From positions 62,001 through 126,000 of the forward strand of contig NZ_VCQT01000012.1 in NCBI RefSeq assembly GCF_005938655.1: 64,000 nt of DNA. The letters are read 5' to 3'. The position numbers were made by a program, and so were the translations under genes. Below, piece by piece: positions 14,020 through 51,234 of the stretch (positions are counted from its first letter, which is position 1; every line of letters begins with the position of its first letter). Under the pieces are notes generated by a model. The model ran no database searches, had not been told where the DNA came from, and was given only the letters and a program-made list of their open reading frames with translations. The stretch is from Alloalcanivorax gelatiniphagus. GTDB taxonomy: Bacteria > Pseudomonadota > Gammaproteobacteria > Pseudomonadales > Alcanivoracaceae.

Positions 14020-14687
14020 TAGTGGTTCCTCTTATTCGAATGAGTCTCGCGGGCCGGCTCAGACAGGCCGAAACGCCGCTTTTTTCTTGCATACAAGAAT
14101 GGTTTTTGTTGGATCTGACGGGGCTCCCGGTGGCTAATATAACCCGTCTTGGTGCACTCCTTGCGGCCAAAAAGCCGTGCCAAACCGCTTCTGCTTGATG
14201 CTTTGGCGGTACTTGCTGGCGTGTTCCATGGGGTGTTTGCCCGGATTGGCTCCGGCGAGCGCTTTTCTATCCCTTTGTTTTTATCTTAAGTGATTGTTTT
14301 TAGTTAATTTTAGATCGTTTTGTTTTTCCGGAAGAGCAGAAAGCTAATCATGTATACATGGACGAATCAAGGTATACGCCAGACTCGTCTTATCTTCTGG
14401 GAACAACTATTGAAGGGGGAGGCGCTGGCCGATGCCGGGGCGGGAGCGGTCCGCGTGGAGGACCGACCACGGGTTCGTTTTAAGGTCATATCTATTGCCC
14501 TTTCCGTCCTCTTATGAGAGACAAAAAATATGATTTATTATTGAGCAGTGTCAGATGGCGAACAGGATTTTATAAAAAATACAGATAAAACAGTGTCTTA
14601 AGTCAATTTTCCCACATTTGACATCCTGAAATGAGGGCGAGCATCTTAAGGGGACACTTTGGGTGGTTCGTAATGTGGGACATGAGA
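14020..14687. other. Long intergenic region with AT-rich patch
   Basis: About 670 bp between the divergent porin and IclR genes. Bases 14260-14640 are clearly AT-richer than the rest of the window. It contains a perfect 12-bp palindrome CATGTATACATG at 14349-14360 and the IclR promoter/operator described separately. A 65-codon TTG-started frame (14320-14517) has no recognisable content and I do not call it. The composition suggests regulatory DNA or a join between segments of different origin. Confidence 0.5.
14610..14680. promoter_or_regulatory. Inverted TCCCACATT pair around IclR promoter
   Basis: TCCCACATT at 14610-14618 is repeated in perfect inversion as AATGTGGGA at 14672-14680. A candidate promoter lies between: TTGACA at 14618-14623, overlapping the first site, and CATCTT at 14642-14647 with an 18-base spacer. 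The second site ends seven bases before the chosen IclR ATG. This fits autoregulation by the IclR protein. A related sequence (AATGGTGGGA, 28374-28383) lies before the paralogous IclR gene. Confidence 0.45.
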
Positions 14688-15470
14688 ATGGAAAAAGACA
14701 ACGCCTCCTCGCTGGATCGTGTGCTCGACATTCTGCTGCTGTTCGCCGGGCACGGGCAGGTCGTCAAACGCACCGAGATTGAACGGCGTTTCGGCCTCTC
14801 ACGCAGCTCCGCCTACCGTTATCTGCACACCTTGCGCCGCCGTGGCCTGATTACCGGCATGGCGCGCAGCGGCGAGTATGTGCTCAGCCCCGGGTTCGCC
14901 CGGCTGGTGGCCCTCACCGAGGAGAACGGGCGCGACATGTGCGCCCTGGTCCGTCCCATATTGCGAGAATTGGCCGGCATGACCGGGGAAACCGCCCTGG
15001 TTACCCACCGGGTTGGCGAACGGGTGCTGTGCGTCGGCTGCCAGGAGGGGCCGCGGGTGGTACGCGTGGGGCTGGCGCCGGCCCTGGAAACCCCCCTCTA
15101 CGTGGGTTCCTCCGCCAAGGTGCACCTGGCGCACATGCCCGATTACGACATCCGCCGGGTGCTCGATCACTGCGCCACCCTGAGTCCGGAGCAATGGTCC
15201 GGTAACGTGGAGCGTCTCGAACAGGAACTGGTGGAGATTCGAGAGCGGGGCTATGCCACCAGCGTCGGCGAACTGGAAGAGGGGGTCTTCAGTACTTCGG
15301 TGCCGGTGTTCTGCCATGACGGCTCCCTGCTGGCGGCGGTGACCGTGGCCGCCGTGGGCGACCGGGCCGAGAACCCGGAGGATGGCCTGCTTGATCACCT
15401 GCGCATCGCCGCCGCGCGCATTGCCCGCGAGTGGCCGCGCTCGCAGCACCAGGCCCGGCAGGCGGGCTGA
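14688..15470 (+). CDS. IclR family regulator, cassette 1
   Basis: A 260-aa IclR-type regulator. The N-terminal winged helix-turn-helix is at 5-70 (SSLDRVLDILLLFAGHG, RFGLSRSSAYRYLHTLRRRGL), followed by an IclR effector-binding domain ending in EDGLLDHLRIAAARIARE. I start it at ATG 14688 (MEKDNASSLDR) because the paralogue at 28473 begins at the equivalent place; ATGs at 14631 and 14682 are alternatives. It heads an apparent operon with an amidohydrolase and an ABC transporter, so it probably controls uptake and catabolism in response to substrate. Confidence 0.88.
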   Translation: MEKDNASSLDRVLDILLLFAGHGQVVKRTEIERRFGLSRSSAYRYLHTLRRRGLITGMARSGEYVLSPGFARLVALTEENGRDMCALVRPILRELAGMTGETALVTHRVGERVLCVGCQEGPRVVRVGLAPALETPLYVGSSAKVHLAHMPDYDIRRVLDHCATLSPEQWSGNVERLEQELVEIRERGYATSVGELEEGVFSTSVPVFCHDGSLLAAVTVAAVGDRAENPEDGLLDHLRIAAARIAREWPRSQHQARQAG

Positions 15471-15475: not shown

Positions 15476-16846
15476 ATGGCGACGACCCTGCTACGTGGCG
15501 GTCACGTGATGACCTTCGATGCCGACGGCCACGAATACCGCGACGGCTGCGTACTGGTGGTGGATGACCGCATCCAGTTCGTCGGCGCCTGTGCCGACCT
15601 GCCGCGCCGGCCGGTGGACCGGGTGCTGGACGTCACCGGCAAGCTGGTGATGCCCGGCCTGGTCAATGGCCACTCCCATCTTTCCATGATCTTCGGGCGC
15701 ACCCTGGGGCCGGAAAAACGGCTGCTGGAATGGCTCGACGTGCAGATGCCGCTGATGGAGGCCTTCGACGAGGAGGCCATGTACGTGGCGCAGATGCTGG
15801 GCTGCCTGGAAAACCTCAAGAACGGCAACACCTCCCTGGTGGAAAACCTGTTCTCCACCCACCCGGACGGTTACATGCCCGAGGACGCCGCCTTCCAGGC
15901 GATCAGCGACGCGGGCATCCGGGGCACGGTGGCGCGGGCCTTTGAAGGTCGGCATTTCCGGCCCAGCTTCATGGAGACCCTGGACCAGCAGGCGCGGCGG
16001 GTCACCGACCTGGCGCACCGTTGGCACGGGGCCGGCGACGACCGCCTGCGGCTTTCCATCGGGCCGCTGCTGCCCTGGTGCATGACCGAGGAAATGTACC
16101 GGGAAACCCGTGCCCTGGCCGACGACCTGGACCTGTGTCTGCACATGCACGTGGCCGAGTCGCCGGAGTTCAATCAACTGATCGCCCGCCACTTCGGCCG
16201 CGAAATTCGCCAGGTGGAACTGCTTCACGAGACCGGCTGCCTGGGGCCGGACGTGCAGGTGGCGGCGGTGTCGGACGTGTCCCAGCGGGAAATCGAACTG
16301 CTGGCGGAGACCGACACCCGGGTGCTGCTGGACCCGCCCACGCGGCTGTTCTGGGGCACCGGCTTCCCGGCCCTGAAACCCTTTCTCGACGCCGGCCTGA
16401 CCTGCGGCCTGGCCACCAACGGTCCCGCCGCCAACTGCGGCCAGGACCTGTTCGAAAGCATGAAGTACGCCTGCGCCACCGCCAAAACCGCCGCCGACGA
16501 CCCGCTGGCGCTAAGCCGCCACCGGGTGCTGCGCATGGCCACCAGCGAAGGGGCCCGGGCGATTGATCGTGACCATCAGGCCGGGCGCCTGGAAGTCGGC
16601 ATGAAAGCCGACCTGATTACCGTGGATCTGCGGCAACCCCATCTTTCTCCCACTTTGGATATCGCCTCGGCGCTGGTGTTCAGCGCCAAGGGCACCGACG
16701 TGCGCGAGGTGATGGTGGACGGAAAGCTGCTGATCGAAAACCGCGAAGCTTTGTTCATCGATGAGGGCGCGCTGTTGCGTCAGGCCGATGTCATCGCCCG
16801 GCGTTGTCTGCGTGACGCCGGTTTGCACCGTTACCTGCATCAATAA
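15476..16846 (+). CDS. Amidohydrolase superfamily protein with altered metal site, cassette 1
   Basis: A 456-aa protein of the AtzA/TrzN/SAH-deaminase-like amidohydrolases. Visible features are the N-terminal beta sandwich, the beta-1 motif GLVNGHSHLSM (H66, H68), and the beta-5 HMHVAES. Two usual residues are absent: the beta-6 AHxVHL region reads AAVSDVS, and the beta-8 GTDGAASNN reads ATNGPAANC, so the metal/general-base Asp is Asn. The paralogue at 29273 has the same changes. It follows IclR by five bases and precedes ABC transporter genes. Possibly an amide, carbamate or ring hydrolase for an aminophenol precursor, or a diverged binding protein. Family firm, activity open. Confidence 0.82.
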   Translation: MATTLLRGGHVMTFDADGHEYRDGCVLVVDDRIQFVGACADLPRRPVDRVLDVTGKLVMPGLVNGHSHLSMIFGRTLGPEKRLLEWLDVQMPLMEAFDEEAMYVAQMLGCLENLKNGNTSLVENLFSTHPDGYMPEDAAFQAISDAGIRGTVARAFEGRHFRPSFMETLDQQARRVTDLAHRWHGAGDDRLRLSIGPLLPWCMTEEMYRETRALADDLDLCLHMHVAESPEFNQLIARHFGREIRQVELLHETGCLGPDVQVAAVSDVSQREIELLAETDTRVLLDPPTRLFWGTGFPALKPFLDAGLTCGLATNGPAANCGQDLFESMKYACATAKTAADDPLALSRHRVLRMATSEGARAIDRDHQAGRLEVGMKADLITVDLRQPHLSPTLDIASALVFSAKGTDVREVMVDGKLLIENREALFIDEGALLRQADVIARRCLRDAGLHRYLHQ

Positions 16847-16856
16847 GGAGAATTCA

Positions 16857-17600
16857 GTGTTCGTTAAGGTGGGATCCATTATTGCCGCCATTTTGGCATG
16901 GTTCGGGCTGTCCTTTCTGTTTCCGGAAACGATCCTGCCGGGGCCGTTTCAAACGGCAATGGTGCTGGCGGACAACTTCGCCAACGGCGATGTTTTTCAG
17001 CATCTGTTCGCCACCCTGTGGCGGGTAATGGGCGGGCTGGCGCTGGCCATGGCCATCGGCATTCCGGTGGGCGTGCTGATGGGCGTCAACCGCTTCGCCG
17101 AAAAGACCCTGGATATCTGGGTGATGGTGGCGCTCACCGTGCCCAGCCTGTGCTACGCGATCTTCGCGTTCATCTGGATCGGCCTCAATGAAACGGCGGC
17201 CATCGTCGCCATCGGCCTGACCTCGGCGCCCTCCATCGCCATCAACCTCTGGGAAGGCGTCAAGAACATCGACACCCGGCTGTTCAAGATGGCCAAGGTG
17301 TTCAACGCCTCGCGCTGGGTAATCATCCGCCGCGTTCTGTTCCCCCAGGTTCTGCCTTACATCATGGCTTCGCTGCGCTTCGGTCTGGGCATCGTGTGGA
17401 AGATCACGGTGCTGGTCGAACTGCTTGGCCGGCCGGACGGCGTCGGCTTCGAACTCTTCTACTGGTACCAGCTCGCCAACATGCAGCAAGTGCTGGCGTG
17501 GACCCTGCTGTTCACCATCGTGATGCTCTTTATCGAGCTGGTCATCCTGCAAAACATGGAGCGCAAATTGTTCTCCTGGCGTCCCAAGGTGAAGATCTAA
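16857..17600 (+). CDS. ABC transporter permease, NitT/TauT type, cassette 1
   Basis: A 247-aa inner-membrane permease of the SsuC/TauC kind with about six membrane helices. The first lies at residues 4-22 (IIAAILAWFGLSFLFPETI). The EAA-like cytoplasmic loop reads NASRWVIIRRVLFPQVLPYIMASLRFGLG. It starts at GTG 16857 with AAGGAG seven bases earlier; an upstream frame extension is a shadow of the amidohydrolase. The ATPase gene overlaps its stop (TAATG). It is highly similar to the permease at 30676. Confidence 0.88.
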   Translation: MFVKVGSIIAAILAWFGLSFLFPETILPGPFQTAMVLADNFANGDVFQHLFATLWRVMGGLALAMAIGIPVGVLMGVNRFAEKTLDIWVMVALTVPSLCYAIFAFIWIGLNETAAIVAIGLTSAPSIAINLWEGVKNIDTRLFKMAKVFNASRWVIIRRVLFPQVLPYIMASLRFGLGIVWKITVLVELLGRPDGVGFELFYWYQLANMQQVLAWTLLFTIVMLFIELVILQNMERKLFSWRPKVKI

Positions 17601-18403
17601 TGGATAAAGGAATCAGCATCAAAGGCCTGGTCAAGGACTACCCGGGCCATCGCAAGGGCGAGCGCGGACAACGGGTCCTCAATGGCCTGGACCTGTCCAT
17701 CGCCGACAACGAATTCGTCTGCATTCTGGGGCCCTCCGGCTGCGGCAAATCCACCCTGCTGAACACCCTGTCCGGGCTGGACAACGACTACAGCGGCGAA
17801 GTCCGCTTCGGTGGTCAGCCGGTGGGCCGTAACGGCAAGCCGCCGGTGAAGATGGGCTATCTGTTCCAGGACCCGCGCCTGCTGCCCTGGCTCACCGCCG
17901 AGCGCAACGTGGACTTCGTGCTGGAAAATTCCGACGTGCCGAAGAGCCGCTGGGCGGAGATCAAGAACCACTATTTCTCGCTCACCGGCCTGGAGGCGTT
18001 CCGCGACCACTATCCCCATGAGCTGTCCGGCGGCATGGCCCAGCGCCTGTCCCTGGTGCGCGCGCTTTCCATCGAGCCGGACGTGCTGTTCATGGACGAG
18101 CCGTTCAGTGGCCTCGATGAACTCACCGCCCGGCGCATGCGGGTGGACCTGTTGGACATCTGGAGCCGCACCGGCAAGACCATTCTGTTCATCACCCACA
18201 ACAGCTACGAGGCCACCTTTCTGGCCGACCGGGTGGTGGTGCTTTCCCAGGGAAATATCCGCGAGGAAATCCCGGTGGAGGTGCCGCGCCCCCGTCATTA
18301 CGACGACCCCGCCCTTTTCGAGATCAGCAAGCAGGTGTCCGCCAATTTCATTGCCGCCGCCGAAGAAGCGGAGCGGGCCCGACTGCAACCACAAGCCGGC
18401 TGA
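17600..18403 (+). CDS. ABC transporter ATPase, NitT/TauT type, cassette 1
   Basis: A 267-aa nucleotide-binding subunit. Walker A GPSGCGKST is near residue 47, the Q-loop in YLFQDPRLLPW, the signature LSGGMAQR near 146, Walker B VLFMDEPF, and the switch His in FITHNSYEA. It powers the permease encoded immediately upstream. ATG at 17600 overlaps the permease stop by one base. Family members import sulfonates, nitrate, pyrimidine precursors or aromatic acids, so substrate cannot be read from this subunit. Confidence 0.92.
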   Translation: MDKGISIKGLVKDYPGHRKGERGQRVLNGLDLSIADNEFVCILGPSGCGKSTLLNTLSGLDNDYSGEVRFGGQPVGRNGKPPVKMGYLFQDPRLLPWLTAERNVDFVLENSDVPKSRWAEIKNHYFSLTGLEAFRDHYPHELSGGMAQRLSLVRALSIEPDVLFMDEPFSGLDELTARRMRVDLLDIWSRTGKTILFITHNSYEATFLADRVVVLSQGNIREEIPVEVPRPRHYDDPALFEISKQVSANFIAAAEEAERARLQPQAG

Positions 18404-18444: not shown

Positions 18445-19440
18445 ATGAAAAACGATCAATCACGGCTAACGGTACGACTGGCGCTGTCCCTGCTGATGGT
18501 GGCGTTCGGCTCGCTGGCGCTTGGCGCCCGCGCCGACGACACACCGATTCGTCTGGCGGACATGGCCCAGTCCCTGAACGGCATCGCCTCCCAGGTGATG
18601 ATCGACCAGCAGCTGGATCACAAGCACGGCGTGGACGTGACCTATAAGGGCTATCCGACTCTGGATGGGCTGTTCAACGCCATCCGTGGCAAGCAGGTGG
18701 ATATGGGCTTCGGCGGCTGGACCGGCTTCGCCCAGTTCCGCGCCCAGGGCTTCCCGGTGGTCAATGTGTTCCCGGTGGGGCGCGGCGCCACCCTGGACGT
18801 GCTGGTGCCGGTGGACTCCGAGCTGCAAAGCCTGGCTGACCTGAAAGGAAAGCGGGTGGCTTCCTACGCCGGCGCCGCCGGCACCGCCACCGTGCTGCTG
18901 CGGGTGGTGCTCAACGACTTCTACCAGTTCGACCCGGCCAGCACCGGCGACCTGCAATACGTGGGCCCGGGCATTATCCCCGCGCTGCTGGACAGCGGCG
19001 ATGTGGACGCCGGTCTGCTTTTCGACCCGCTTGCCACCAAGGCCATTGCCTCCGGCAAGTACCGCAGCATCGGCAATCTCGGCGACATCTATAAAGAAGA
19101 AACCGGCGACGATTTTCTGTGGATCTCCCTGGCCACCAACGACGACTTCGCCGACGCCAACCCGGAAGCCGTTGCCGGCTTCCTGCAAGCCTGGCTGGAA
19201 GCGGTGGAATACGTGAAAGCGCATCCCGCCGTGTTCCAGGCCTATGGCGAAAAACTGGGCCTGGATCAGGCCGGCATCGACATGCTGGCCGAACGGGTGA
19301 TCCGCGACTACGCCACCACCTGGAACGAGCAGTACATCGATGGCCTGAAGGCATTCGCCGACCGCGCCAGCCGGGTGATGGACAAGGGCTTCCTGGACCA
19401 GTTGCCCGCCGACGCTTTCTCCACCCAGTACGCCCCATGA
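18445..19440 (+). CDS. Periplasmic substrate-binding protein (NMT1/TauA-like), cassette 1
   Basis: A 331-aa secreted ABC receptor. The Sec signal ends at ARA-DD (about residue 31). The NMT1/SsuA-type fold is shown by MAQSLNGIASQVMIDQQLDHKHGVDV, KGYPTLDGLFNAIRGKQVDMGFGGW and DLKGKRVASYAGAAGTATVLL. It belongs with the permease and ATPase just upstream. It is far closer to the protein at 33321 (roughly four residues in five identical by eye) than that protein is to its own neighbour at 32246. The ligand is unknown; position before amn genes suggests an aromatic amide, carbamate or aminophenol derivative. Confidence 0.88.
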   Translation: MKNDQSRLTVRLALSLLMVAFGSLALGARADDTPIRLADMAQSLNGIASQVMIDQQLDHKHGVDVTYKGYPTLDGLFNAIRGKQVDMGFGGWTGFAQFRAQGFPVVNVFPVGRGATLDVLVPVDSELQSLADLKGKRVASYAGAAGTATVLLRVVLNDFYQFDPASTGDLQYVGPGIIPALLDSGDVDAGLLFDPLATKAIASGKYRSIGNLGDIYKEETGDDFLWISLATNDDFADANPEAVAGFLQAWLEAVEYVKAHPAVFQAYGEKLGLDQAGIDMLAERVIRDYATTWNEQYIDGLKAFADRASRVMDKGFLDQLPADAFSTQYAP

Positions 19441-19519: not shown

Positions 19520-20413
19520 ATGTCTTTCGATGATCTTCCCGACCAGCCGCCGATCTATCCGCGTGAAGCGGAGGACTACGCGCGGCAGGCCCTGGACAGG
19601 TCCCGCCGCGCCTCGGCACGGGTCAGGAATCATATGGACATCCGCTACGGGGATGACTACTGGCAGAAGATCGATATCTATCTGCCGGATGACACCGAGG
19701 CCACCGATCTGCCGGTGCTGCTGTTCGCCCATGGCGGTGCCTGGACCCACGGCTATAAGGAATGGTTGGCGCTGATGGCGCCGGCCATCGTCGATACCCC
19801 GGCGATCTTCGTGTCGGTGTCCTACCGGCTGGCGCCGGAGTGCCGCTTCCCGGGACCGCTGGAAGATTGCATAGAGGCACTGGCCTGGGTGTACGACCAC
19901 ATCGGTGAATACGGCGGCGATGTGGACCGCCTCTACGTGGGCGGGCATTCCGCCGGCGGCCACCTGTTCGCGCTGGCGGCGCTGAAGCCGGAAATGCTGA
20001 CCCGCGCCGGTCTGCCCGCCAACCTGATCAAAGGCTGCATGCCGATCTGTTCGCAACTGAACCTGGTGTTCGACGACCCGGCCCCGGACAGCGGCGAGGC
20101 GCGCATCTACGAGATGTTCCTGGCGGACCGGGCCGACGACCGGGCGGCCAGCCCGTTGCACAGCATTGGCGCCAACCCGCCGCCGTTTTTCATTGCCCAC
20201 GGCGGCGACGATTTCCCGCGCATCATCGAAAGCAACAAGAAGATGATCGCCGCCCTGGCCCGGGCCGGCGCGGCGGTGCGCTCCCATGTGGAACCCGGCG
20301 CCACCCACTTCGGGCTGGCCCTGCAGATGGAAGACCCGGGCTCGCCGGTGATGCGGACGCTGCGCGATTGGCTGCGGCACGGACCCTGCGGCTTCGACGG
20401 CCCGCTGCACTGA
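19520..20413 (+). CDS. Alpha/beta hydrolase, arylformamidase-like
   Basis: A 297-aa alpha/beta hydrolase of the kynurenine-formamidase/hormone-sensitive-lipase-like branch. It carries oxyanion motif HGGAW at 71-75, FVSVSYRLAPECRFPGPLEDC typical of this branch, nucleophile GHSAGG with Ser144, and a C-terminal GATHFG with the likely His. There is no signal peptide. It lies in the run of genes leading to amnB, so a role in freeing 2-aminophenol from an N-formyl, N-acyl or ester conjugate is plausible. That role is inference from position; the family is also full of general esterases. Confidence 0.8.
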   Translation: MSFDDLPDQPPIYPREAEDYARQALDRSRRASARVRNHMDIRYGDDYWQKIDIYLPDDTEATDLPVLLFAHGGAWTHGYKEWLALMAPAIVDTPAIFVSVSYRLAPECRFPGPLEDCIEALAWVYDHIGEYGGDVDRLYVGGHSAGGHLFALAALKPEMLTRAGLPANLIKGCMPICSQLNLVFDDPAPDSGEARIYEMFLADRADDRAASPLHSIGANPPPFFIAHGGDDFPRIIESNKKMIAALARAGAAVRSHVEPGATHFGLALQMEDPGSPVMRTLRDWLRHGPCGFDGPLH

Positions 20414-20856: not shown

Positions 20857-21783
<927 letters not shown>

Positions 21784-21813
21784 AGCGGCCGCCCACAGAC
21801 GAGGAGAACAAAG

Positions 21814-22623
21814 ATGACCGTTGTATCCGCTTTTCTGGTGCCCGGCAGCCCGCTGCCCTACCTGCGTCAGGACAACGCGCCCTGGCAGCCGCTGGCCGCC
21901 GGTTATGAAAAAGTCCGTGAAGCGCTGCAGGCCTCCCGGCCGGACGCGCTGCTGATCTACTCCACCCAATGGTTCGCGGTGCTCGACCAGCTGTGGCAGG
22001 CGCGCCCGCACCTCACCGGCGAGCACGTGGACGAGAACTGGTACGAGTACGGTGACCTGACCATCGACCTGCGTTCCGACACCGACCTGGTGGACGCCTG
22101 CATCGGCGGCTGCGCCGATATCGGCATCCGCGCCAAGGGCGTCAACTATGACCACTTCCCGGTGGACACCGGCACCATCGTCGCCAACAACTTCGTCAAT
22201 CCCGGCGGAAAAATCCCGCTGGTGATCGCCGCCAACAACCTTTACCACGGCCCCGGCGAGACCGAGAAGCTGGCGGCCATGGCGGTGGAGCAGGCCGACA
22301 AGCAGGGTAAGCGCCTGGCGGTGCTGGCCATCGGTGGTCTGTCGGCGGCCTATTTCGATGAAGAGATCGATATCGCCGAGGACCGCATTCGTCACGACGC
22401 GGACGACGCCGCCAACCGCCAGCTGCTCGATGCGCTGGCCAACGGCGACCGACGTTCCGCCAGTGAGGCCCTGGGTCGCTTCAATGAGACCACCAAGGCG
22501 GACATGGGCATGAAACATCTGTCCTGGCTGTTGGGCGCCACCGGCGACTTCAAAGGCGCCCGGTTGCACGCCTACGGCCCCACCTATGGCGCCGGCGCCG
22601 CGGTGGTGGAATTCAATTTGTAA
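21814..22623 (+). CDS. amnA: 2-Aminophenol 1,6-dioxygenase alpha subunit
   Basis: A 269-aa LigB-fold partner of AmnB (FLVPGSPLPYLRQDNAPW at the start, NYDHFPVDTGTIVANNFVNP in the middle, KHLSWLLGATG near the end). In this enzyme class the alpha subunit lacks the complete iron site and has a structural role. In line with that, the His-rich elements of AmnB are not conserved here. It is followed 24 bp later by a strong terminator, so the dioxygenase genes may be expressed more than the rest of the operon. Confidence 0.9.
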   Translation: MTVVSAFLVPGSPLPYLRQDNAPWQPLAAGYEKVREALQASRPDALLIYSTQWFAVLDQLWQARPHLTGEHVDENWYEYGDLTIDLRSDTDLVDACIGGCADIGIRAKGVNYDHFPVDTGTIVANNFVNPGGKIPLVIAANNLYHGPGETEKLAAMAVEQADKQGKRLAVLAIGGLSAAYFDEEIDIAEDRIRHDADDAANRQLLDALANGDRRSASEALGRFNETTKADMGMKHLSWLLGATGDFKGARLHAYGPTYGAGAAVVEFNL

Positions 22624-22646
22624 CCTTTCGATCGCGCTCACGATCC

Positions 22647-22674
22647 GCGCGGCCCGCGGGCCGCGCTTTTTTTT
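22647..22674 (+). terminator. Strong intrinsic terminator inside the amn operon
   Basis: A perfect 20-base palindrome at 22647-22666 (left half GCGCGGCCCG) is directly followed by eight T. It lies 24 bp after amnA and 33 bp before amnC. Only about 25 bp remain before the amnC ribosome site, too little for an obvious promoter, so amnC onward probably relies on read-through. Confidence 0.85.
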
Positions 22675-22707
22675 ACCGCGATCCTCGCTGTCTTCAGGAG
22701 TGCGCAA

Positions 22708-24165
22708 TTGATTTCCGAATACCGTAACTACATCAATGGCCGGTTCGTGGAATCCCCGAACACCTTCGAGGATCTGAACCCGGCCAATGGCGAACTGGTG
22801 GCCCGGGTCCACGAGGCCGACGCCGCGCTGGTGGACCAGGCGGTGCGCGCCGGCCGTGCCGCGTTGCCGGCCTGGCGCAACACCAGCGCCGAACAGCGTG
22901 CCCAGTATCTGGAGCGCATCGCCGCCGTGATCGAACGGCGCGCCGACGATTTCCTGGCCGCCGAAGTGGCCGACACCGGCAAACCGGTGTCCGTGGCATC
23001 GCGGGTGGACATCCCCCGGGGCGCCGCCAACTTCCGCGCCTTCGCCGCCATGATCCGCATGAGCGGCGGTGAGGTGTATGAAACACCCACCCCGGAGGGC
23101 CGGGCGCTCAACTATTCCCTGCGTCAGCCCCTCGGCGTGGTGGGCATCATCTCGCCCTGGAACCTGCCGCTGCTGCTGTTCACCTGGAAGGTGGCGCCGG
23201 CCCTGGCCTGCGGCAACGTGATCGTGGCCAAACCCTCCGAGGAAACACCGGGCACCGCCACCCTGCTGGCGGAGGTGATGGACGAGGTGGGCCTGCCCGA
23301 AGGGGTCTTCAATCTGGTGCACGGCTTCGGGCCCGGTTCCGCCGGTGCCGCCATCGTCGATCACCCGGACGTGGACGGCATCACCTTCACCGGCGAATCG
23401 AAAACCGGCGCCACCATCATGCGCAACGTGGCCGACAAGGTGCGGCCGGTGTCCTTCGAACTGGGTGGCAAGAACGCCGCCCTGGTGTTCGCCGACGCGG
23501 ACTTCGACAAGGCGGTGGCCGGCGTGGCCCGCTCCAGCTTTCTCAATACTGGCCAGGTGTGCCTGTGTACCGAGCGGGTCTATGTGGAGCGGCCGATCTT
23601 CGACCGCTTCGTGGCGGCGCTTGCGGAACAGGCCCGCGCGCTGCGCCCCGGTGATCCGCTGGACCCGGAGACCACCCTGGGGCCGCTGATTTCCCGCCAG
23701 CACCGCGACAAGGTGCTGTCCTACTACGCCCTGGCCCGGGAGGAGGGCGCCACCGTGGTCACCGGCGGCGGCGTGCCGGCCCTGGGCGGCAAACTCGACC
23801 AGGGCTGCTATGTGGAGCCGACCATCTGGACCGGCCTGGACCAGTCCGCCCGCTGCCTGCAGGAGGAGGTGTTCGGCCCGGTCTGCCACGTGATGCCGTT
23901 CGACACCGAGGAGCAGGCGATCGCGCTGGCCAATGACAGCCGCTACGGGTTGGCCAGCGCCATCTGGACCACCCACCTGGATCGCGGCCACCGCCTGGCG
24001 GCGCGCATCGATGCCGGGCTGGTGTGGCTGAACACCTGGTTCCTGCGCGACCTGCGCACCCCGTTCGGCGGCATGAAGCTGTCCGGCCTGGGCCGCGAGG
24101 GCGGGCGCCATTCTCTGGATTTCTATTCCGAACTGAAAAACGTCTGCGTGCAGATGTCGCAATAA
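22708..24165 (+). CDS. amnC: 2-Aminomuconic 6-semialdehyde dehydrogenase
   Basis: A 485-aa NAD-dependent aldehyde dehydrogenase that oxidises the ring-cleavage product to 2-aminomuconate. The catalytic Cys285 (TGQVCLC) and Glu251 (ELGGK) are 34 residues apart as usual; PWNLPLLLFTWKVAPALACGN is the cofactor-binding region. The sequence is of the 2-hydroxy/aminomuconate semialdehyde dehydrogenase type (GLGREGGRHSLDFYSELKNVC at the end). It starts at TTG 22708 with AGGAG seven bases before; no ATG fits. It follows a terminator, so its level may be set by read-through. Confidence 0.9.
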   Translation: MISEYRNYINGRFVESPNTFEDLNPANGELVARVHEADAALVDQAVRAGRAALPAWRNTSAEQRAQYLERIAAVIERRADDFLAAEVADTGKPVSVASRVDIPRGAANFRAFAAMIRMSGGEVYETPTPEGRALNYSLRQPLGVVGIISPWNLPLLLFTWKVAPALACGNVIVAKPSEETPGTATLLAEVMDEVGLPEGVFNLVHGFGPGSAGAAIVDHPDVDGITFTGESKTGATIMRNVADKVRPVSFELGGKNAALVFADADFDKAVAGVARSSFLNTGQVCLCTERVYVERPIFDRFVAALAEQARALRPGDPLDPETTLGPLISRQHRDKVLSYYALAREEGATVVTGGGVPALGGKLDQGCYVEPTIWTGLDQSARCLQEEVFGPVCHVMPFDTEEQAIALANDSRYGLASAIWTTHLDRGHRLAARIDAGLVWLNTWFLRDLRTPFGGMKLSGLGREGGRHSLDFYSELKNVCVQMSQ

Positions 24166-24182
24166 AGCCGGGAGGCGTTGCC

Positions 24183-24992
24183 ATGCAAACGACAATTACC
24201 GAAACCCTGGCCCGCGCCGCTCAGCGGTTGCGCGCCGCCCACGAAACCGGCCAGCCCTGTGAGCCGGTCCGGGACCTGATCGGCGCCGACGATCTGGACA
24301 GCGCCTATCAGGTCCAGGAGATCAACAGCCGTTACTGGGAAAGCCGTGGCCGCCGGGTGGTGGGCGGCAAGATCGGCCTCACCGCCCGGGTGGTGCAGGA
24401 GCAACTGGGCGTGGATCAACCGGACTACGGCCTGCTGTTCGCCGATATGGGGGTGGCCGACGGCGGTCTGATTCCCTGGCATCAGGTTTCGCAGCCCAAG
24501 GTGGAAGCGGAAGTGGCCCTGGTGCTGAGCCGTGACCTGAGCCACGACCAGATCACCCTGCCGGAGCTGATCGCCGCCACCGACTATGTGCTGCCGGCGC
24601 TGGAAGTGGTGGGCAGCCGCATCGCCAACTGGGACATCACCATCGCCGATACGGTGGCGGACAACGCCTCCTGCGGCGCCTGGGTGCTGGGCACCACGCC
24701 GCGCTCGTTGCGCGAGGTGGACCTGACCCTGTGCGGCATGAAGCTGACCCGCCGGGGCGAGCCGGTGTCGGTGGGCGCCGGCGCCGCCTGCCTGGGCAAT
24801 CCGCTCAACGCCGCCCTGTGGCTGGCCAACACCCTGGCGCGGGCCCGCCGGCCGCTGCGCGCCGGTGACCTGATTCTCACCGGCGCGCTCGGCCCGATGG
24901 TGGCGGCGGCCCCCGGTGATCGCTTCCGCGCCCATATCGAAGGCCTCGGTTCGGTATCGGTGGGCTTCGGAAAGGAGAATGACCATGACTGA
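24183..24992 (+). CDS. amnF: 2-Oxopent-4-enoate hydratase
   Basis: A 269-aa MhpD/DmpE-type hydratase that adds water to 2-oxopent-4-enoate to give 4-hydroxy-2-oxovalerate. The length equals that of MhpD. Family landmarks are [45 protein letters not shown] and a C-terminal [13 protein letters not shown]. It differs from the decarboxylase at 26974 by lacking [20 protein letters not shown]. The ATG at 24183 is preceded by GGGAGG. It overlaps the next gene by eight bases. Confidence 0.9.
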
Positions 24993-25929
24993 CAAAATCA
25001 AAGTGGCGATCCTCGGCTCCGGCAATATCGGTACCGACCTGATGATCAAGATTCTGCGCACCGGCGAACGGTTGGAGATGGCCGCCCTGGTGGGCATCGA
25101 TGCGGAATCCGACGGTCTGGCCCGTGCCCGGCGCCTGGGCGTGGCCACCTGCGACACCGGCGTGGAAGGGTTGGTGGCGCTGCCCGTCTTTGAACATATC
25201 GCCCTGGTGTTCGACGCCACCTCCGCCGGCGCCCACCGCCACAACGAGCGGGTGCTGCGCGCCGCCCGGCCGGACATCCGCGTGATTGATATGACCCCGG
25301 CGGCCATCGGGCCCTATTGCGTGCCGGTGGCCAACCTGGACGAACACCTGGACGCACTCAACGTCAACATGGTCACCTGCGGTGGCCAGGCCACCATTCC
25401 CATTGTCCACGCGGTATCGCGCCTGGCACGGGTGCACTACGCCGAGATCGTGGCTTCCATCGCCAGCAAATCCGCCGGCCCGGGCACCCGCGCCAATATC
25501 GACGAATTCACCGAAACCACCTCCCTGGCGCTGGAAAAAGTGGGCGGCGCCGAGCATGGCAAGGCGATCATCGTGCTTAACCCGGCGGAGCCGCCGCTGC
25601 TGATGCGCGACACCGTCTATGTGTTCTGCGAACCGGCCGACCAGCAGGCCATCGCCGACGCCATCGCGGAAACCGTGGCCAGGGTCAACGCCTACGTGCC
25701 CGGCTACCGGCTCAAGCAGGAGGTGCAGTTCGAGCAGTACGGCGAGGACGGCCCCCTGTACATGCCCGGTGAAGGCGACCGGGTGGGGCTGAAGATCACA
25801 GTGTTCCTGGAAGTGGAAGGGGCTGCCCACTATCTGCCGGCCTACGCCGGCAACCTGGACATCATGACCTCGGCGGCGCTGGCCACCGGTGAACGGATGG
25901 CGTCCCGGCTGGCCGGCGCGGCCGCCTAG
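24985..25929 (+). CDS. amnH: Acetaldehyde dehydrogenase (acylating)
   Basis: A 314-aa MhpF/DmpF-type enzyme converting acetaldehyde, NAD and CoA to acetyl-CoA. N-terminal Rossmann motif [12 protein letters not shown], catalytic Cys132 in [10 protein letters not shown], and [17 protein letters not shown]. It forms a channelling complex with the aldolase encoded next. ATG 24985 has AAAGGAG eight bases before; ATG 24979 is too close to that site. It overlaps the hydratase stop by eight bases. Confidence 0.93.
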
Positions 25930-25949
25930 GTCGCAAGGGAGAAATAAGC

Positions 25950-26981
25950 ATGACTAAAAAACTCTACATCTCCGACGTCACCCTCCGTGACGGTTCCCAT
26001 GCCATCCGCCATCAATACAGCGTGGCGGACGTGCGCCGCATCGCCGCCGCTCTGGATCAAGCCCGGGTGGATTCCATCGAGGTGGCCCACGGCGATGGCC
26101 TGCGCGGCTCCTCGTTCAACTATGGCTTCGGCGCCCATACCGATCTGGAATGGATCGAGGCGGTGGCGGACACGGTTTCCCACGCCAAGGTGGCGACCCT
26201 GTTGTTGCCCGGTATCGGCACGGTGAAGGATCTGCGCGACGCCCACGCCGCCGGCGCCTCGGTGGTGCGGGTGGCCACCCACTGCACCGAAGCCGACGTT
26301 TCCAGACAGCACATCGAACTGGCCCGACAACTGGGCATGGATACCGTGGGCTTTCTGATGATGAGCCATATGACCACACCCGCGGAACTGGCCCGCCAGG
26401 CCAAATTGATGGAGGACTACGGCGCCACCACCGTCTACGTGGTGGACTCCGGCGGCGCCCTGTCCATGGATGATGTGCGTGACCGCTTCCGCGCCTTCAA
26501 GGACGTGCTCAAGCCGGAAACCGGCACCGGCATGCACGCCCACCACAACCTGAGCCTCGGGGTGGCCAACTCCATCGTCGCGGTGGAAGAGGGCTGCGAC
26601 CGCATTGACGCCAGCCTGGCGGGCATGGGCGCCGGCGCCGGCAACGCGCCCCTGGAAGTGTTTATCGCCGCCGCCGACCGGCTTGGCTGGGACCACGGCT
26701 GCGACCTGTACACCCTGATGGACGCCGCCGACGACATCGTGCGGCCGCTGCAGGACCGGCCGGTGCGGGTGGACCGGGAAACCCTGGCCCTGGGCTATGC
26801 CGGTGTGTACTCCAGCTTTCTGCGCCACGCCGAGAACGCCGCCGCCCGCTACGGGCTGAAAACCGTGGACATCCTGGTGGAGCTGGGCCGACGCCGCATG
26901 GTGGGGGGCCAGGAAGACATGATCGTGGATGTTGCTTTGGACATGCTCAAGAATCGCCAACCGGAGACCGACCATGCCTGA
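25950..26981 (+). CDS. amnG: 4-Hydroxy-2-oxovalerate aldolase
   Basis: A 343-aa MhpE/DmpG-type class II aldolase that splits 4-hydroxy-2-oxovalerate to pyruvate and acetaldehyde. HMG-CoA-lyase-like TIM barrel with [16 protein letters not shown] (catalytic Arg/Asp), [12 protein letters not shown] for the metal His pair, and [17 protein letters not shown]. Partner of the acylating dehydrogenase upstream. It overlaps the following gene by eight bases. Confidence 0.94.
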
Positions 26982-27792
26982 CAAGAAAACGCCCGAGCGA
27001 AATAAGGCGCGCCGCAAAGGCACGGACCCGAAGGATATCCAGGCCATGGCGGAACGGGTGGATGAGGCCGCCCGCCAGGGCCAGGCCATCGACCAGTTCG
27101 CCGCCGGCACCCTGAACGTCAGCGACGCCTACGCGGTGCAGGCCGCCTCGGTGGAGCGCCGGCTGCGGCGCGGCGAAGCGCCCATCGGCATCAAGCTCGG
27201 CTTTACCAGCCGCGCCAAGATGGTACAGATGGGCGTGGAGGATCTGATCTGGGGCCGGCTCACCGACGCCATGCTGGTGGAGGAGGGCGGCCAGATCGAC
27301 CTGGACGCCTATGTTCACCCCCGGGTGGAACCGGAACTGGCGTTTCTGATCGAAAAGCCGCTGACCGGACTGGTCACCCTGCCCCAGGTGCAGGCCGCCA
27401 TCGGCGCGGTGGCGCCGGCCATGGAAATCATCGATTCCCGCTACCGGGACTTCAAATTCGACCTGCCCAGCGTGGTCGCCGACAACGCCTCGTCGTCCGG
27501 CCTGGTGCTCGGCGCCTGGCGCCGCGCCGACCTGGATATCGCCAACCTGGGCATGGTCATGAGCCTGGATGGCGAGGTGCGCCAGGTGGGCTCCTCCGCC
27601 GCCATCCTCGGCCACCCCCTGCGCGCCCTGGTGGCCGCCGCCCGGCTGGTGGGGGAGGCCGGGCTGAGCCTGCGGCCCGGCGACGTGGTGCTGGCCGGCG
27701 CCGCCACCGCCGCCGAACCGCTGCGGCGCGGCCAGCATGTGGAACTGCGGGTGCAGCACCTGGGCGGTGCCGAATTCCAGGTGGCCGGATAA
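26974..27792 (+). CDS. amnE: 4-Oxalocrotonate decarboxylase
   Basis: A 272-aa DmpH-type decarboxylase that turns 4-oxalocrotonate into 2-oxopent-4-enoate. Distinguishing segments are [39 protein letters not shown] and [21 protein letters not shown], which match the decarboxylase rather than the hydratase branch. A Lys/Arg-rich N-terminal extension of about 20 residues is unusual. The ATG at 26974 overlaps the aldolase gene. Confidence 0.9.
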
Positions 27793-27802
27793 GGAGCGTG
27801 CC

Positions 27803-28249
27803 ATGAGCGAGCAATCCCGGGACGCCACCGCGTCCCACGGCAAAACCCTGGCCCACAAGGCCAAACCCCGGGGCCGTTTTCCCCATGTGAAGCGGGCCGG
27901 CGACTTCCTGTTCGTCTCCGGCACCAGCTCGCGCCGCCCGGACAACAGCTTTGTCGGCGCCGAGGTGGATGAAATGGGCGTCACCCGGCTGGATATCGAG
28001 GCCCAGACCCGGGCGGTGATCGACAATATCGCCGATATCCTGGCCAGCGAGGGCGCCGGCCTGGAAGACCTGGTGGAAATGAGCTGCTTCCTGGTCAACA
28101 TGAATGACTTCGGCGGCTTCAACCGGGTCTGGGGCGAGTATTTCCACGGCGGCGGCCCCACCCGGACCACCGTGGCCGTGCACCAATTGCCCCATCCCCT
28201 GCTGCTGGTGGAAATGAAGGCGCTGGCCTACAAGCCGCTGCCCCGCTGA
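27803..28249 (+). CDS. amnD: 2-Aminomuconate deaminase (RidA family)
   Basis: A 148-aa YjgF/RidA-fold enzyme. In 2-aminophenol pathways this protein releases ammonia from 2-aminomuconate to give 4-oxalocrotonate. Visible features are [25 protein letters not shown], the PTRTTVAV segment holding the conserved Arg, and LLVEMKALA with the conserved Glu. The N-terminal extension [11 protein letters not shown] is typical of AmnD-type members. It is the last gene of the amn set; a hairpin follows 28 bp later. Confidence 0.9.
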
Positions 28250-28472: not shown

Positions 28473-29252
28473 ATGAACAACAACGACAACGTCTCATCGC
28501 TGGACCGGATCCTGGACATCATGCTGATGTTCGCCGGTCATGGCCGGGTGGTGACCCGCAGGGAAATCGAGCGACGCTTCGGTTTGTCGCGCAGTTCCGC
28601 CTACCGCTACCTGCACAGCCTGCGCCGGCGCGGCCTGATCACCGCCATGGCGCGCAGTGGCGAGTTCGTGCTCAGCCCCGGCTTCGTGCGGCTGGCAGCG
28701 CTCACCGAGGAATACGGCCGCGACATGTCGGAAATCGCCGCGCCGATCCTGCGCGAGCTGGCCGGCATCACCGGCGAGAGCGCCATGGTCACCCATCGAG
28801 CCGGTGACCGGGTTTTGTGCGTGCGCTTTCAGGACGGGCCCCGGGCGGTCCGGGTGGGGCTGGGCCCCGCCGCCAACACGCCTTTGTACAAAGGCGCCTC
28901 CGCCAAGGTGCACCTGGCCTATATGACGAAGGCGGATATTCGTGACGTGCTGGACCATTGCCGCACCCTGTCGGCGGAGGAGTTTCCTCGGCAGGTGGAC
29001 GACCTGGAGAGTGAGTTGCTGGAGATCCGTGAACGGGGCTACGCCACCAGTGCCGGTGAGCTGGAAGCCAGCGTGGTCAGCGTGGCGGTGCCGATCATCG
29101 GCTCCGACAACAACATACTCGGCGTGGTGGCGGTGGCGTCGGTGGGCGAGCGCGCGCAATCCCCGGAAGACGGACTGCTCGATCACCTGCGCATCGCCGC
29201 CGCCCGCATCAACCGGGAATGGGACCGGGCCAAGCCCCTGGAACTGTTTTAA
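28473..29252 (+). CDS. IclR family regulator, cassette 2
   Basis: A 259-aa IclR regulator colinear with that at 14688 (SSLDRILDIMLMFAGHG, RFGLSRSSAYRYLHSLRRRGLIT, GERAQSPEDGLLDHLRIAAAR). Winged HTH at 6-70, effector domain after residue 85. The ATG follows AACACAACT, with no strong ribosome site. It heads the second amidohydrolase/ABC cassette. The effector domains of the two regulators differ more than the HTH parts, so they may answer to different ligands while binding similar sites. Confidence 0.88.
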   Translation: MNNNDNVSSLDRILDIMLMFAGHGRVVTRREIERRFGLSRSSAYRYLHSLRRRGLITAMARSGEFVLSPGFVRLAALTEEYGRDMSEIAAPILRELAGITGESAMVTHRAGDRVLCVRFQDGPRAVRVGLGPAANTPLYKGASAKVHLAYMTKADIRDVLDHCRTLSAEEFPRQVDDLESELLEIRERGYATSAGELEASVVSVAVPIIGSDNNILGVVAVASVGERAQSPEDGLLDHLRIAAARINREWDRAKPLELF

Positions 29253-29272: not shown

Positions 29273-30661
29273 ATGACAACCACATTGTTTCAAGGGGGCC
29301 GGGTCCTGACGCTGGACGCGGACGGAAACGATTACCCGGACGGCTGCGTGCTGGTCCGCGATGACCGCATCGAATACGTGGGCCCCCGCCACCAGCTACC
29401 GGACACGCCGGTGGATCAGACCCTCGATATGAGCGGCAAACTGGTGATGCCCGGCCTGGTCAATGGCCATACCCATCTGAGCATGGTGTTCGGCCGTACC
29501 CTGGGCCCGGAAAAGCGGCTGATGCAGTGGCTCGACCAGCAACTGCCGATCATTGAAGCGTTCGACGAAGAAGCCATGTACGTGGCGCAGCTGCTCGGTT
29601 GCCTGGAAAATCTCAAGAACGGCAACACCACCCTGGTGGAGAACCTGGTGGCGCCGCACCCGCCGGCCTACACGCCGGAAAACGCGGTGCTCCAGGCGAT
29701 GCGCGACGCCGGCGTGCGCGCCACCCTGGCGCCGGGGTTTCTCGGCCGCAACTTCCGCCCCAGCTATATGGAAAGCCTGGACCTGCAGGCGCGGCGGATC
29801 ACCGACCTGACCCACGAATGGCACGGCGCCGACAACGATCGCCTGCGCCTGGCCACCGGCCCGCTGCTGCCCTGGTGCATGACCGAGGCCATGTTCCGCC
29901 AGACCCGCGCGCTGGCCGACGATCTGGGCATCTGCCTGCACATGCACGGTGCCGAAACCACCGAATTCAACAACCTGATCGCCAAACACTTTGGCCGCGA
30001 CATCCGCCAGGTGGAACTGCTGGCCGAAACCGGCTGCCTGGGTCCGGACGTGCAACTGGCGGCGGTGTACGACATCTCGGCCGGCGAGGTGGCGCTGCTC
30101 GCCGAGAGCGACACCCGCGTGTTGCTGGACCCGCCCACCCGGCTGTTCTGGGGCACCGGTTTCCCGGCCATTCACCCGTTCCTGGAGGCCGGCATCACCT
30201 GTGGTCTGGCCACTAACGGGCCAGCCGCCAACTGCGGCCAGGACCTGTTTGAAAGCATGAAATACGCCTGCGCCACGGCCAAGACAGCCAAGGGCGATCC
30301 GGATGCTCTGGATGCGACCCGGGCGTTGCGCATGGCCACCTCGGAAGGCGCCAAGGCCATCGGCCGCGACGGGCAGGTGGGCTGCCTGGCGCCGGGCATG
30401 AAGGCCGATGTGATCACGCTCGACCTGCAACAACCGCACCTGGCGCCGACCCTGGATGTGAGCGCGGCGCTGGTGTACAGCGCCCGGGGCACCGACGTCC
30501 GTGACGTGATGGTGGATGGTCGCTTATTGATTGAAAATCGCCGCGCCCTGTTGATCGACGAGGCGGCGCTGCTCGGGCAGGCCGAACAACTGGCCCGGCG
30601 TTGCGCCGAGGCGGCCGGCATCAAGCTGCCCGATGAGGGCCGGCGGATGGCGGAACAATAA
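29273..30661 (+). CDS. Amidohydrolase superfamily protein with altered metal site, cassette 2
   Basis: A 462-aa paralogue of the protein at 15476, similar end to end. It keeps GLVNGHTHLSM on beta 1 and HMHGAET on beta 5. It also shows AAVYDIS instead of a beta-6 His and ATNGPAANC instead of the beta-8 GTD. The shared change in both copies argues for selection rather than decay. It starts 20 bp after IclR (GGGGGGAC before ATG) and precedes permease, ATPase and binding-protein genes. It might process a second but related substrate. Confidence 0.82.
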   Translation: MTTTLFQGGRVLTLDADGNDYPDGCVLVRDDRIEYVGPRHQLPDTPVDQTLDMSGKLVMPGLVNGHTHLSMVFGRTLGPEKRLMQWLDQQLPIIEAFDEEAMYVAQLLGCLENLKNGNTTLVENLVAPHPPAYTPENAVLQAMRDAGVRATLAPGFLGRNFRPSYMESLDLQARRITDLTHEWHGADNDRLRLATGPLLPWCMTEAMFRQTRALADDLGICLHMHGAETTEFNNLIAKHFGRDIRQVELLAETGCLGPDVQLAAVYDISAGEVALLAESDTRVLLDPPTRLFWGTGFPAIHPFLEAGITCGLATNGPAANCGQDLFESMKYACATAKTAKGDPDALDATRALRMATSEGAKAIGRDGQVGCLAPGMKADVITLDLQQPHLAPTLDVSAALVYSARGTDVRDVMVDGRLLIENRRALLIDEAALLGQAEQLARRCAEAAGIKLPDEGRRMAEQ

Positions 30662-30675: not shown

Positions 30676-31419
30676 GTGCTGTTAAAACTGGGATCGATGC
30701 TGGCCGTGGTGGCGGCCTGGTTCGGGTTGTCATTGCTGCTGCCGGCAACGGTACTGCCGGGTCCCTGGCAAACCCTCAATGTGCTGCTGGAAAACATCGC
30801 CGACGGTCAGGTGCATCAGCATCTGCTGGCCACCCTGGGCCGGGTGCTGGGCGGCCTGGCCCTGGCCATGGCGGTGGGGGTGCCGGTGGGCATCATCATG
30901 GGGCTCAACCGGTTCGCCGAAAAAACCCTGGACGTGTGGGTGATGGTGGCGCTCACCGTGCCGAGCCTGTGCTACGCGATCCTCGCCTTTATCTGGATCG
31001 GCCTTAACGAGACCGCCGCCATCGTCGCCATCGGCCTGACCTCGGCCCCCTCCATCACCATCAATCTGTGGGAAGGCGTCAAGAACATCGACACCCGTCT
31101 GTTCAAGATGGCCCGGGTGTTCAATGCCTCGCGCTGGGTGATCGTGCGCCGGGTGCTGTTTCCTCAGGTGCTGCCCTACATCATGGCGTCGCTGCGCTTC
31201 GGCCTGGGGATCGTCTGGAAGATCACGGTGCTGGTGGAACTGCTGGGCCGCCCCGATGGGGTCGGCTTCCAATTGTTTTACTGGTATCAGCTGGCGGACA
31301 TGGCCCAGGTGTTGGCCTGGACCCTGCTGTTCACGCTGGTGATGCTGTTTATCGAACTGGTGATTCTGCAACGGCTGGAACGCCGGCTGTTCGCCTGGCG
31401 CCCGGAGGTGAGACTGTGA
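30676..31419 (+). CDS. ABC transporter permease, NitT/TauT type, cassette 2
   Basis: A 247-aa permease, same length as its paralogue at 16857, with about six membrane helices and the loop NASRWVIVRRVLFPQVLPYIM. Start is GTG 30676 after ACAAGGAAAAAGCCT. Its stop overlaps the ATPase start (GTGA). Likely paired with the ATPase and one or both downstream binding proteins. Confidence 0.88.
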   Translation: MLLKLGSMLAVVAAWFGLSLLLPATVLPGPWQTLNVLLENIADGQVHQHLLATLGRVLGGLALAMAVGVPVGIIMGLNRFAEKTLDVWVMVALTVPSLCYAILAFIWIGLNETAAIVAIGLTSAPSITINLWEGVKNIDTRLFKMARVFNASRWVIVRRVLFPQVLPYIMASLRFGLGIVWKITVLVELLGRPDGVGFQLFYWYQLADMAQVLAWTLLFTLVMLFIELVILQRLERRLFAWRPEVRL

Positions 31420-33259: not shown

Positions 33260-33320
33260 AGGGCGAAACAGTTTTTTAATGGTTTTGATCACATAACGAT
33301 AAAGCTGGGAGAACAGATCC

Positions 33321-35830: not shown

Positions 35831-35980
35831 CGGGAAGCTCCTACTGGGAAATCGATCACGGTATGTACACGGGGGCCGGGTGACTCTGAGCCGGCGGGCG
35901 GGCATTGTACGTCAGATCGCGGTCAATCCCGCGACACCATAAGCAAAACAGGGAGATCCCGGACAGGGAAGGAGGACAAC

Positions 35981-44408: not shown

Positions 44409-44465
44409 GGTGGCTCCTGCCATTGAACATGGAAGGGCCGCGGGGCGGCCCGTACACGGGAAAGA

Positions 44466-44858
44466 TCAGTCCCTGGCGGTGATCACCGCTAGCACGTCGC
44501 ACTGAATCAGAAACTTGGATTCCACCGGGTTCTGAATGGCGTGCCGCGCCGGGCGGGAAGCCGGATCGGGGAACATCTTCAGCCACTGCTCATTAAGCAC
44601 TTCGCGCTGGGAGCGGTCCTGCATCCAGACGGTCATCTTCAGGATGTCGTCGGTGCCGCCGCCGGCGGCCTCGACGATGTTGCGCACGTGCTGGAACATG
44701 AACGCGCATTGCGCTTTCAGATCGGCGCCCAGTTCGCCGGTGGCCGGGTCGGTGCCGTTGATTACGCCGGTGGCCATCAGGTCCCCGATCCGGCTGGCCG
44801 CCGGGATCGGGTTCTGGTGGGAGAAGCCGGCGCTGTGCACGCTCTGGCGTCGTGACAT
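44466..44858 (-). CDS. RidA/YjgF family protein
   Basis: A 130-aa RidA-fold protein: HSAGFSHQNPIPAASRIGDLMATGVINGTDP, QCAFMFQHVRNIVEAAGG, then SRPARHAIQNP with the conserved Arg, and the FLIQCDVLAV end strand. The usual Glu near the C-terminus is not obvious. It could deaminate an enamine/imine intermediate of the pathway. It sits between TctC and the hydrolase on one transcript. Confidence 0.85.
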   Translation of the reverse strand: MSRRQSVHSAGFSHQNPIPAASRIGDLMATGVINGTDPATGELGADLKAQCAFMFQHVRNIVEAAGGGTDDILKMTVWMQDRSQREVLNEQWLKMFPDPASRPARHAIQNPVESKFLIQCDVLAVITARD

Positions 44859-44886
44859 TGTTGCGTTCCTTCTCGGTAAAAGCGGC

Positions 44887-47664: not shown

Positions 47665-47681
47665 CGTTTTCAGGAGATACC

Positions 47682-51230: not shown

Positions 51231-51234
51231 TTTG

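Follow-up and report, generated by a model that had tools for sequence, protein, structure and literature searches.

Two paralogous amidohydrolases, here termed AH1 and AH2, are encoded in a stretch of 64,000 nucleotides of Alloalcanivorax gelatiniphagus (contig NZ_VCQT01000012.1, positions 62,001 to 126,000; in the following referred to as the window) and carry Ala and Asn in place of the His after beta 6 and the Asp after beta 8. The clade to which they belong is real, narrow, and strongly conserved, and it represents a variant of an enzyme type already known, above an oddity and below a new kind. The enzyme is probably functional, with an active site that has been remodeled, and not a dead one. 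The reading that we favor, with a probability of about 0.5, is that AH1 and AH2 are active mononuclear metal hydrolases with a rebuilt metal site, belonging to the AtzA/SAH-deaminase branch of the amidohydrolase superfamily. In this very large family, most mechanisms are built on the beta-8 Asp. A clade without both residues, but with candidate substitutes at defined positions and two paralogues, would allow for a direct test of the minimal catalytic set of the family; it is also a warning against annotation from the HxH motif alone and hints that marine bacteria might form 2-aminophenol by an as yet unknown route.

Sequence motifs and structural model

AH1 is encoded by a single open frame without a stop (456 amino acids), and AH2 (462 amino acids) is 73% identical to it (Table 1). 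The Pfam family Amidohydro_1 covers residues 57–418 of AH1 (E 5e-43); the two proteins reached 148.1 (AH1) and 153.4 bits against a cut-off of 25. The motifs of AH1 are GHSHL (H66, H68), HMHVAE (H223, H225, E228), QVAAVSDVS (A264, D267), and GLATNGPAANC (N315), whereas in AH2 the beta-6 motif is AAVYDIS and the beta-8 motif ATNGPAANC. Within the pair, beta 1 reads HSH or HTH and beta 5 HMHVAE or HMHGAE. In the phmmer alignment with the atrazine chlorohydrolase AtzA, whose numbering was counted by hand with a 20-residue tag offset, A264 corresponds to H276, N315 to D327, and D286 to residue 298. The original prediction, made from the letters alone, stated that HSH on beta 1 and HMHVAE on beta 5 are kept in AH1 and that the beta-6 His and beta-8 Asp are replaced. 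Translation, Pfam, phmmer, and the structural model bear this out, and the same changes were found, as predicted, in the paralogue starting at position 29,273.

Table 1. Positions of the genes and codons discussed in the text, counted from the first letter of the window
Feature	Position	Strand	Basis
IclR-family regulator, unit 1	14631..15470	+	Pfam IclR_C, HTH_IclR
AH1, amidohydrolase with A264/N315	15476..16846	+	translation; Amidohydro_1 5e-43; model pLDDT 93.8
Kept beta-1 H-x-H, AH1 codons 66–68	15671..15679	+	both His in 68/68 relatives
Kept beta-5 His and HxxE Glu, AH1 codons 225–228	16148..16159	+	relatives: H225 68/68, E228 63/68
Ala for beta-6 His, AH1 codon 264	16265..16267	+	members Ala 8/8; other rows His 68/68
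New Asp after beta 6, AH1 codon 267	16274..16276	+	8/8 members
New Asp directly after beta 7, AH1 codon 286	16331..16333	+	8/8 members; DSSP beta 7 282–285
Asn for beta-8 Asp, AH1 codon 315	16418..16420	+	relatives Asp 68/68 and 57/57
ABC permease, unit 1	16854..17600	+	Pfam BPD_transp_1
ABC ATPase, unit 1	17597..18403	+	Pfam ABC_tran
NMT1/THI5-like substrate-binding protein, unit 1	18445..19440	+	Pfam NMT1
Alpha/beta hydrolase, HGG and GHSAGGH motifs	19520..20413	+	Abhydrolase_3/BD-FAE; synteny
amn-type 2-aminophenol meta-cleavage operon, between units 1 and 2	20872..28249	+	
IclR-family regulator, unit 2	28473..29252	+	~70% identical to the unit-1 IclR of related genomes
AH2, AH1 paralogue with A264, D267, D286, N315 alike	29273..30661	+	
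ABC permease and ATPase, unit 2	30676..32222	+	homology to unit 1 genes
Two more NMT1-like binding proteins, unit 2	32246..34316	+	Pfam NMT1

Structure prediction and comparison with TrzN, proposed earlier as a check, yielded an AlphaFold model of AH1 with a mean pLDDT of 93.8 (input alignment of 76 rows) and a Z score of 50.4 to TrzN (3ls9). The best structure matches of the model were 3hpa (Z 52.9) as well as 8is4 and 7ww2 (both 52.7). DSSP assigned residues 260–263 to beta 6, 282–285 to beta 7, and 310–312 to beta 8; A264 follows beta 6, D286 follows beta 7, and N315 is located after beta 8.

Residue conservation in the clade and its relatives

Residues were compared in a MAFFT alignment of 76 rows, comprising the eight clade members and 68 relatives (nine loci were dropped). 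All 76 rows share H66, H68, and H225, and E228 is a Glu in all members and in 63 of the 68 relatives. At position 264 the members have Ala (8/8) and the relatives His (68/68), at position 315 Asn (8/8) and Asp (68/68), respectively. Both H264 and D315 are kept in 57 out of 57 further Pseudomonadota loci detected by tblastn, which are the best-scoring further loci listed in the class and phylum searches and may overlap the 68. A first tblastn tally counted D315 in all 77 loci and H264 in 75 of them; the two exceptions (L033 and L057) show a His in the MAFFT alignment. Set against the subtype III metal site, all eight members contain the HxH on beta 1 and the beta-5 His, but Asn instead of the beta-8 Asp and Ala instead of the beta-6 His.

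Two Asp residues are new. Asp267, located three residues beyond A264, occupies a position that is mostly H, W, or Y in relatives. Asp286 is present in all eight members and in none of the 68 and 57 relatives, which have only Asn (41) or Cys (27) in the MAFFT alignment and Cys (41) or Asn (16) among the further loci; a His was recorded in one relative in the tblastn tally. The original prediction overlooked both invariant Asp residues. It had named another Asp or His filling the metal site as a finding that would speak against it: a new invariant Asp is indeed located at the end of beta 7, as a candidate for this role only. Among the relatives, 62 positions are conserved to 80% or more, and 13 of these are changed in all eight members (e.g., N290 to Arg, N321 to Cys, and E232 to Phe); several barrel-rim positions are thus altered together. 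Residues 316–330 at the beta-8 rim are identical at 15 of 15 positions over the eight members. The barrel mouth, in segments defined post hoc with the data already seen, is invariant at 40 of 49 positions compared with 249 of 401 elsewhere (eight members; Fisher p 0.007). Position 123, which is aligned with AtzA Glu125, is Glu in 8/8 members and Asp in 93% of the relatives.

Distribution, phylogeny, and selection

The profile of the subfamily across genomes, also proposed earlier, revealed eight distinct genes in five genomes, three of which have two copies and two a single one. The clade is present in 5 of 46 family genomes including that of the source strain, and all five are among the 13 genomes of one genus, Alloalcanivorax. 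The other genomes are those of A. marinus NMRL4, A. marinus SY10-13, A. profundimaris ST75FaO-1, and an 'Alcanivorax sp.' MAG. The nearest relatives found outside the genus are about 35% identical. A contig scan with two peptide patterns, which covers only relatives carrying either pattern, assigned 6 of the best 80 of 295 relatives to the clade, with the next one at 34% identity. Among the matches listed at E up to 1e-75 for 369 class and 398 phylum genomes (overlapping samples, with at most four candidates scored per listed genome), the clade was found in its own genome only. In 19 plasmid records (E up to 1e-50), the best identity was 34.7%.

The eight members form one branch in a tree of 80 rows (SH-aLRT 100, stem 1.48). 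Because TrzN groups with other rows (support 96), its loss of the beta-8 Asp looks separate from that of the clade, although TrzN is itself a long branch. The tree also joined the clade to a Pantoea protein, which was not trusted as both are long branches. The dN/dS ratio was 0.06–0.32 in all 28 pairs of the eight genes (NG86, Nei–Gojobori), and YN00 returned values of 0.025–0.053 for only 5 of the 28 pairs. Decay or sequencing error was rejected on the agreement of all eight genes and the low dN/dS; chance or sequencing error appears an unlikely cause of A264 and N315, because both residues recur in 8/8 genes of five genomes under such ratios. The single branch, the purifying selection, and the agreement of the paralogues uphold the original view of a conserved new subfamily rather than decay.

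Comparison with characterized amidohydrolases

AtzA (4v1x) is the best PDB sequence match of AH1 (E 4.2e-48) and shares the fold over the whole length of the model (Z 51.4, rmsd 1.9, 30% identity). Both proteins have the HxH, the beta-5 His, the Glu of HxxE, and a Glu at AtzA position 125. In contrast to AH1, AtzA contains His276 and Asp327, through which it also binds Fe (PMC4356373). Position 298 of AtzA is a Gln in the chain sequence, whereas AH1 has an Asp (D286); this residue, printed as Glu298, was called an outlier associated with the active site (PMC4356373).

The triazine hydrolase TrzN resembles AH1 in its fold and in having no beta-8 Asp. Its site contains Zn, Thr325 takes the place of AtzA Asp327, and the enzyme is an efficient broad-range Zn hydrolase (PMC4356373). 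The same source describes TrzN as unique in having no beta-8 Asp and as the first member of a ninth metal-site subgroup. The trzN gene of plasmid pTC1 encodes GTTGSASND at the beta-8 site and LAHAV at beta 6. The loss of the beta-8 Asp therefore has a precedent in an active Zn hydrolase. However, TrzN keeps the beta-6 His274 and has a Leu at position 286, where AH1 has Ala and Asp, respectively; with Asn and Ala instead of a beta-8 Thr and a beta-6 His, AH1 does not fall into the ninth subgroup. The original prediction, which missed this Thr, was wrong in listing TrzN among the enzymes whose beta-8 Asp binds the metal. Nor is its suggestion of changed chemistry or a non-hydrolytic role warranted. 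Of the two losses, that of the beta-6 His is the rarer. No active precedent was found for the joint loss of both residues; among the titles listed for open-licence PMC papers, none concerned such a beta-8 Asn, and no paper in that set named both Alloalcanivorax and amidohydrolase.

NatAM (6sj0), a benzoxazole-forming amidohydrolase acting on an ortho-aminophenol-type compound (a 3-hydroxyanthranilate ester), has an amidohydrolase fold like AH1 (Z 42.0 to the model). It catalyzes a condensation and keeps His290 and Asp345 (PMC7204872), whereas AH1 is without both counterparts. The fold search had brought up NatAM as a possible close relative, which was rejected because NatAM keeps both residues. 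With A264 at the presumed position of the catalytic His, AH1 does not correspond to a NatAM-type condensing amidohydrolase. The highest profile scores and a close fold were obtained for SAH, MTA, and 5'-deoxyadenosine deaminases (4f0r, 4dyk, NF005557). In the alignment, read by eye, the canonical His and Asp are present in both 4f0r and 4dyk, while AH1 has neither.

Gene neighborhood of the two units

The unit of IclR regulator, amidohydrolase, ABC transporter, and alpha/beta hydrolase was found in 5 of 5 genomes by synteny. With the binding protein of unit 1, those of unit 2 share 65% and 83% identity; the more similar one (33,321–34,316) is the third NMT1-like binding protein of the locus and has no permease of its own. 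An aldo–keto reductase gene comes directly after unit 1, with no amn genes, in the genomes of A. profundimaris and A. marinus SY10-13. In the window, this reductase is encoded at 35,936–36,898 and has a twin-arginine-like N-terminus (RRDFLNGALWGG), so that it is perhaps periplasmic.

A relative of the alpha/beta hydrolase (41% identity) is encoded in Novosphingobium resinovorum HR1a, where no amidohydrolase is among the 16 features listed for the locus. In a sequence of the same class as the source (L109, 9,250–18,744; eight frames scanned), another relative (39%) is located beside RidA, short-chain dehydrogenases, and two styrene-monooxygenase-like proteins, which looks like an indole-type degradation cluster. 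Relatives of the binding proteins occur in Paracoccus yeei and Salipiger abyssi in clusters whose annotated genes look nic-like. Nicotinate catabolism was nevertheless rejected for the units, as an identity of 28% is too weak to assign a substrate. Promoter-like sequences numbered 3 (mean of shuffled sequences 2.3) and terminator-like sequences 15 (12.0), both close to what shuffling gives.

The operon between the units encodes AmnB, an AmnA-type protein, an AmnC-type dehydrogenase, a hydratase, an acetaldehyde dehydrogenase, an aldolase, a second FAA-type protein, and RidA (Pfam, NCBIfam). AmnB matched 8ihg (1.8e-162) and the dehydrogenase the 2-aminomuconate 6-semialdehyde dehydrogenase 4u3w (2.2e-219); a 73% identity to cnbCb of Comamonas testosteroni CNB-1 was also recorded for the operon. 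Both the 2-aminophenol 1,6-dioxygenase and the 2-aminomuconic semialdehyde dehydrogenase of a 2-aminophenol pathway are present. No MarR-type gene was seen beside the operon; Burkholderia LB400 has the MarR-type amnR at its amn genes (PMC3790839). Between the AmnA-type gene and the dehydrogenase gene, a perfect GC hairpin of eight pairs followed by eight T was detected (22,647–22,666).

Close AmnB genes occur in the same three of five genomes as AH2, but two contigs share the locus in the 'Alcanivorax sp.' MAG. The AmnB search gave only distant LigB-type matches in A. profundimaris and A. marinus SY10-13. Compared with A. marinus NMRL4, AmnB is 99% and AH1 88% identical; dS is 0.25–0.30 for three amn genes, 0.45–0.54 for AH1, AH2, the alpha/beta hydrolase, and the unit-1 regulator and binding protein, and 0.35 for the third binding protein. 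The unit without amn in two of five genomes, together with the lower dS of amn, suggests that amn joined later or was inherited differently, with the unit as the core. Given these two genomes, 2-aminophenol cannot be the general product.

Proposed mechanism and alternative interpretations

In the favored reading of AH1 and AH2 as metal hydrolases, a divalent metal would be held by His66, His68, and His225, and Glu228 would act as base or acid. In one of two mechanisms proposed for AtzA, the second, its counterpart Glu246 is the base (PMC4356373), and TrzN Glu241 is a proton donor. Asp286, whose strand neighbors that of the lost beta-8 Asp, may stand in for its carboxylate, either binding the metal weakly or orienting the water, whereas Asn315 would only form hydrogen bonds; Asp286 could as well bind the substrate as the metal. 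The presumed beta-6 His speaks against this mechanism by analogy, as it appears essential in AtzC and NatAM and is kept in TrzN: the Ala mutants of AtzC His249 (PMC4577212) and NatAM His290 (PMC7204872), both taken here as the beta-6 His, are inactive and abolish the product, respectively.

The substrate is most likely an imported N-heteroaromatic; the binding proteins are members of the NMT1/THI5-like family. The amidohydrolase would open or trim a compound taken up by its own NMT1-type ABC transporter under the control of IclR, and the neighboring alpha/beta hydrolase would process the product further. The unit accompanies amn in three of five genomes, which suggests that its product is channeled into 2-aminophenol catabolism in these genomes: a compound of the benzoxazole or 2-benzoxazolinone type might be opened by the amidohydrolase and trimmed by the alpha/beta hydrolase to 2-aminophenol. 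We regard 2-aminophenol as the end product feeding amn in these three genomes as a tentative assignment that may well be wrong. BxdA, which has another fold than the amidohydrolases, counts against the benzoxazolinone route. It is a known lactonase for a related methoxy-benzoxazolinone (PMC11297187). A bolder version, which we consider improbable, is a further metal-site class, in which the acid has moved from beta 8 to beta 7 (315 to 286) and the beta-6 His is dispensable. Such an enzyme may open a fused oxazole-type ring (benzoxazole, 2-benzoxazolinone) in the formal reverse of the NatAM reaction and feed 2-aminophenol to amn.

The retained His residues could also hold a metal that merely polarizes the substrate in a cyclization, lyase, isomerase, or decarboxylase type of reaction, with both residues lost because water activation is not needed. 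The AtzC counterparts of the lost residues hydrogen-bond the metal-bound water (PMC4577212), and NatAM is a precedent for condensation in the superfamily. Since NatAM itself keeps His290 and Asp345 and needs the former (PMC7204872), while Glu228 is kept and an Asp is gained in the clade, as a hydrolase would need, and the gene lies next to those for a hydrolase and a transporter in a locus of the degradation type, such a non-hydrolytic role seems rather unlikely. Catalysis might have been given up altogether, so that the protein would only bind a ligand or serve as a scaffold, for instance by sensing the imported compound in the cytoplasm. Such pseudoenzymes have parallels in the metal-less dihydropyrimidinase-related and PyrC-like proteins. 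The two lost residues are kept by all sampled relatives (68/68 and 57/57), and TrzN alone, a row added deliberately, is without one of them. However, the clade shows no variation at the three metal His, Glu228, and the beta-8 rim, two paralogues keep identical new residues, and each unit already contains an IclR regulator, which together make a pseudoenzyme a poor bet. Least credible to us is an ordinary SAH, MTA, 5'-deoxyadenosine, or 8-oxoguanine deaminase that tolerates both changes. The top NCBIfam model is indeed 5'-deoxyadenosine deaminase, and many top structure matches are named deaminases, but AH1 stays far below the curated equivalog cut-offs (279.7 vs. 522 bits for NF005557, 174.5 vs. 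779 for NF012037) and the locus is of a catabolic type. The Glu at position 123 is a mild further argument, given the Asp of most relatives and of the deaminase TriA at the position of AtzA Glu125 (PMC4356373).

Further observations in the window

A second catabolic-looking cluster (43,533–52,746) encodes an Amidohydro_2 protein, an IclR regulator, an FAA hydrolase, and a TctA transporter. An acetamidase/formamidase family protein (FmdA_AmdA; 11,148–12,476) with an apparent signal peptide is encoded near a porin and has a 96% identical copy in A. profundimaris. At 9,589–10,401, a protein of the RlaP family (RNA repair pathway DNA polymerase beta family) was identified with 288 bits.
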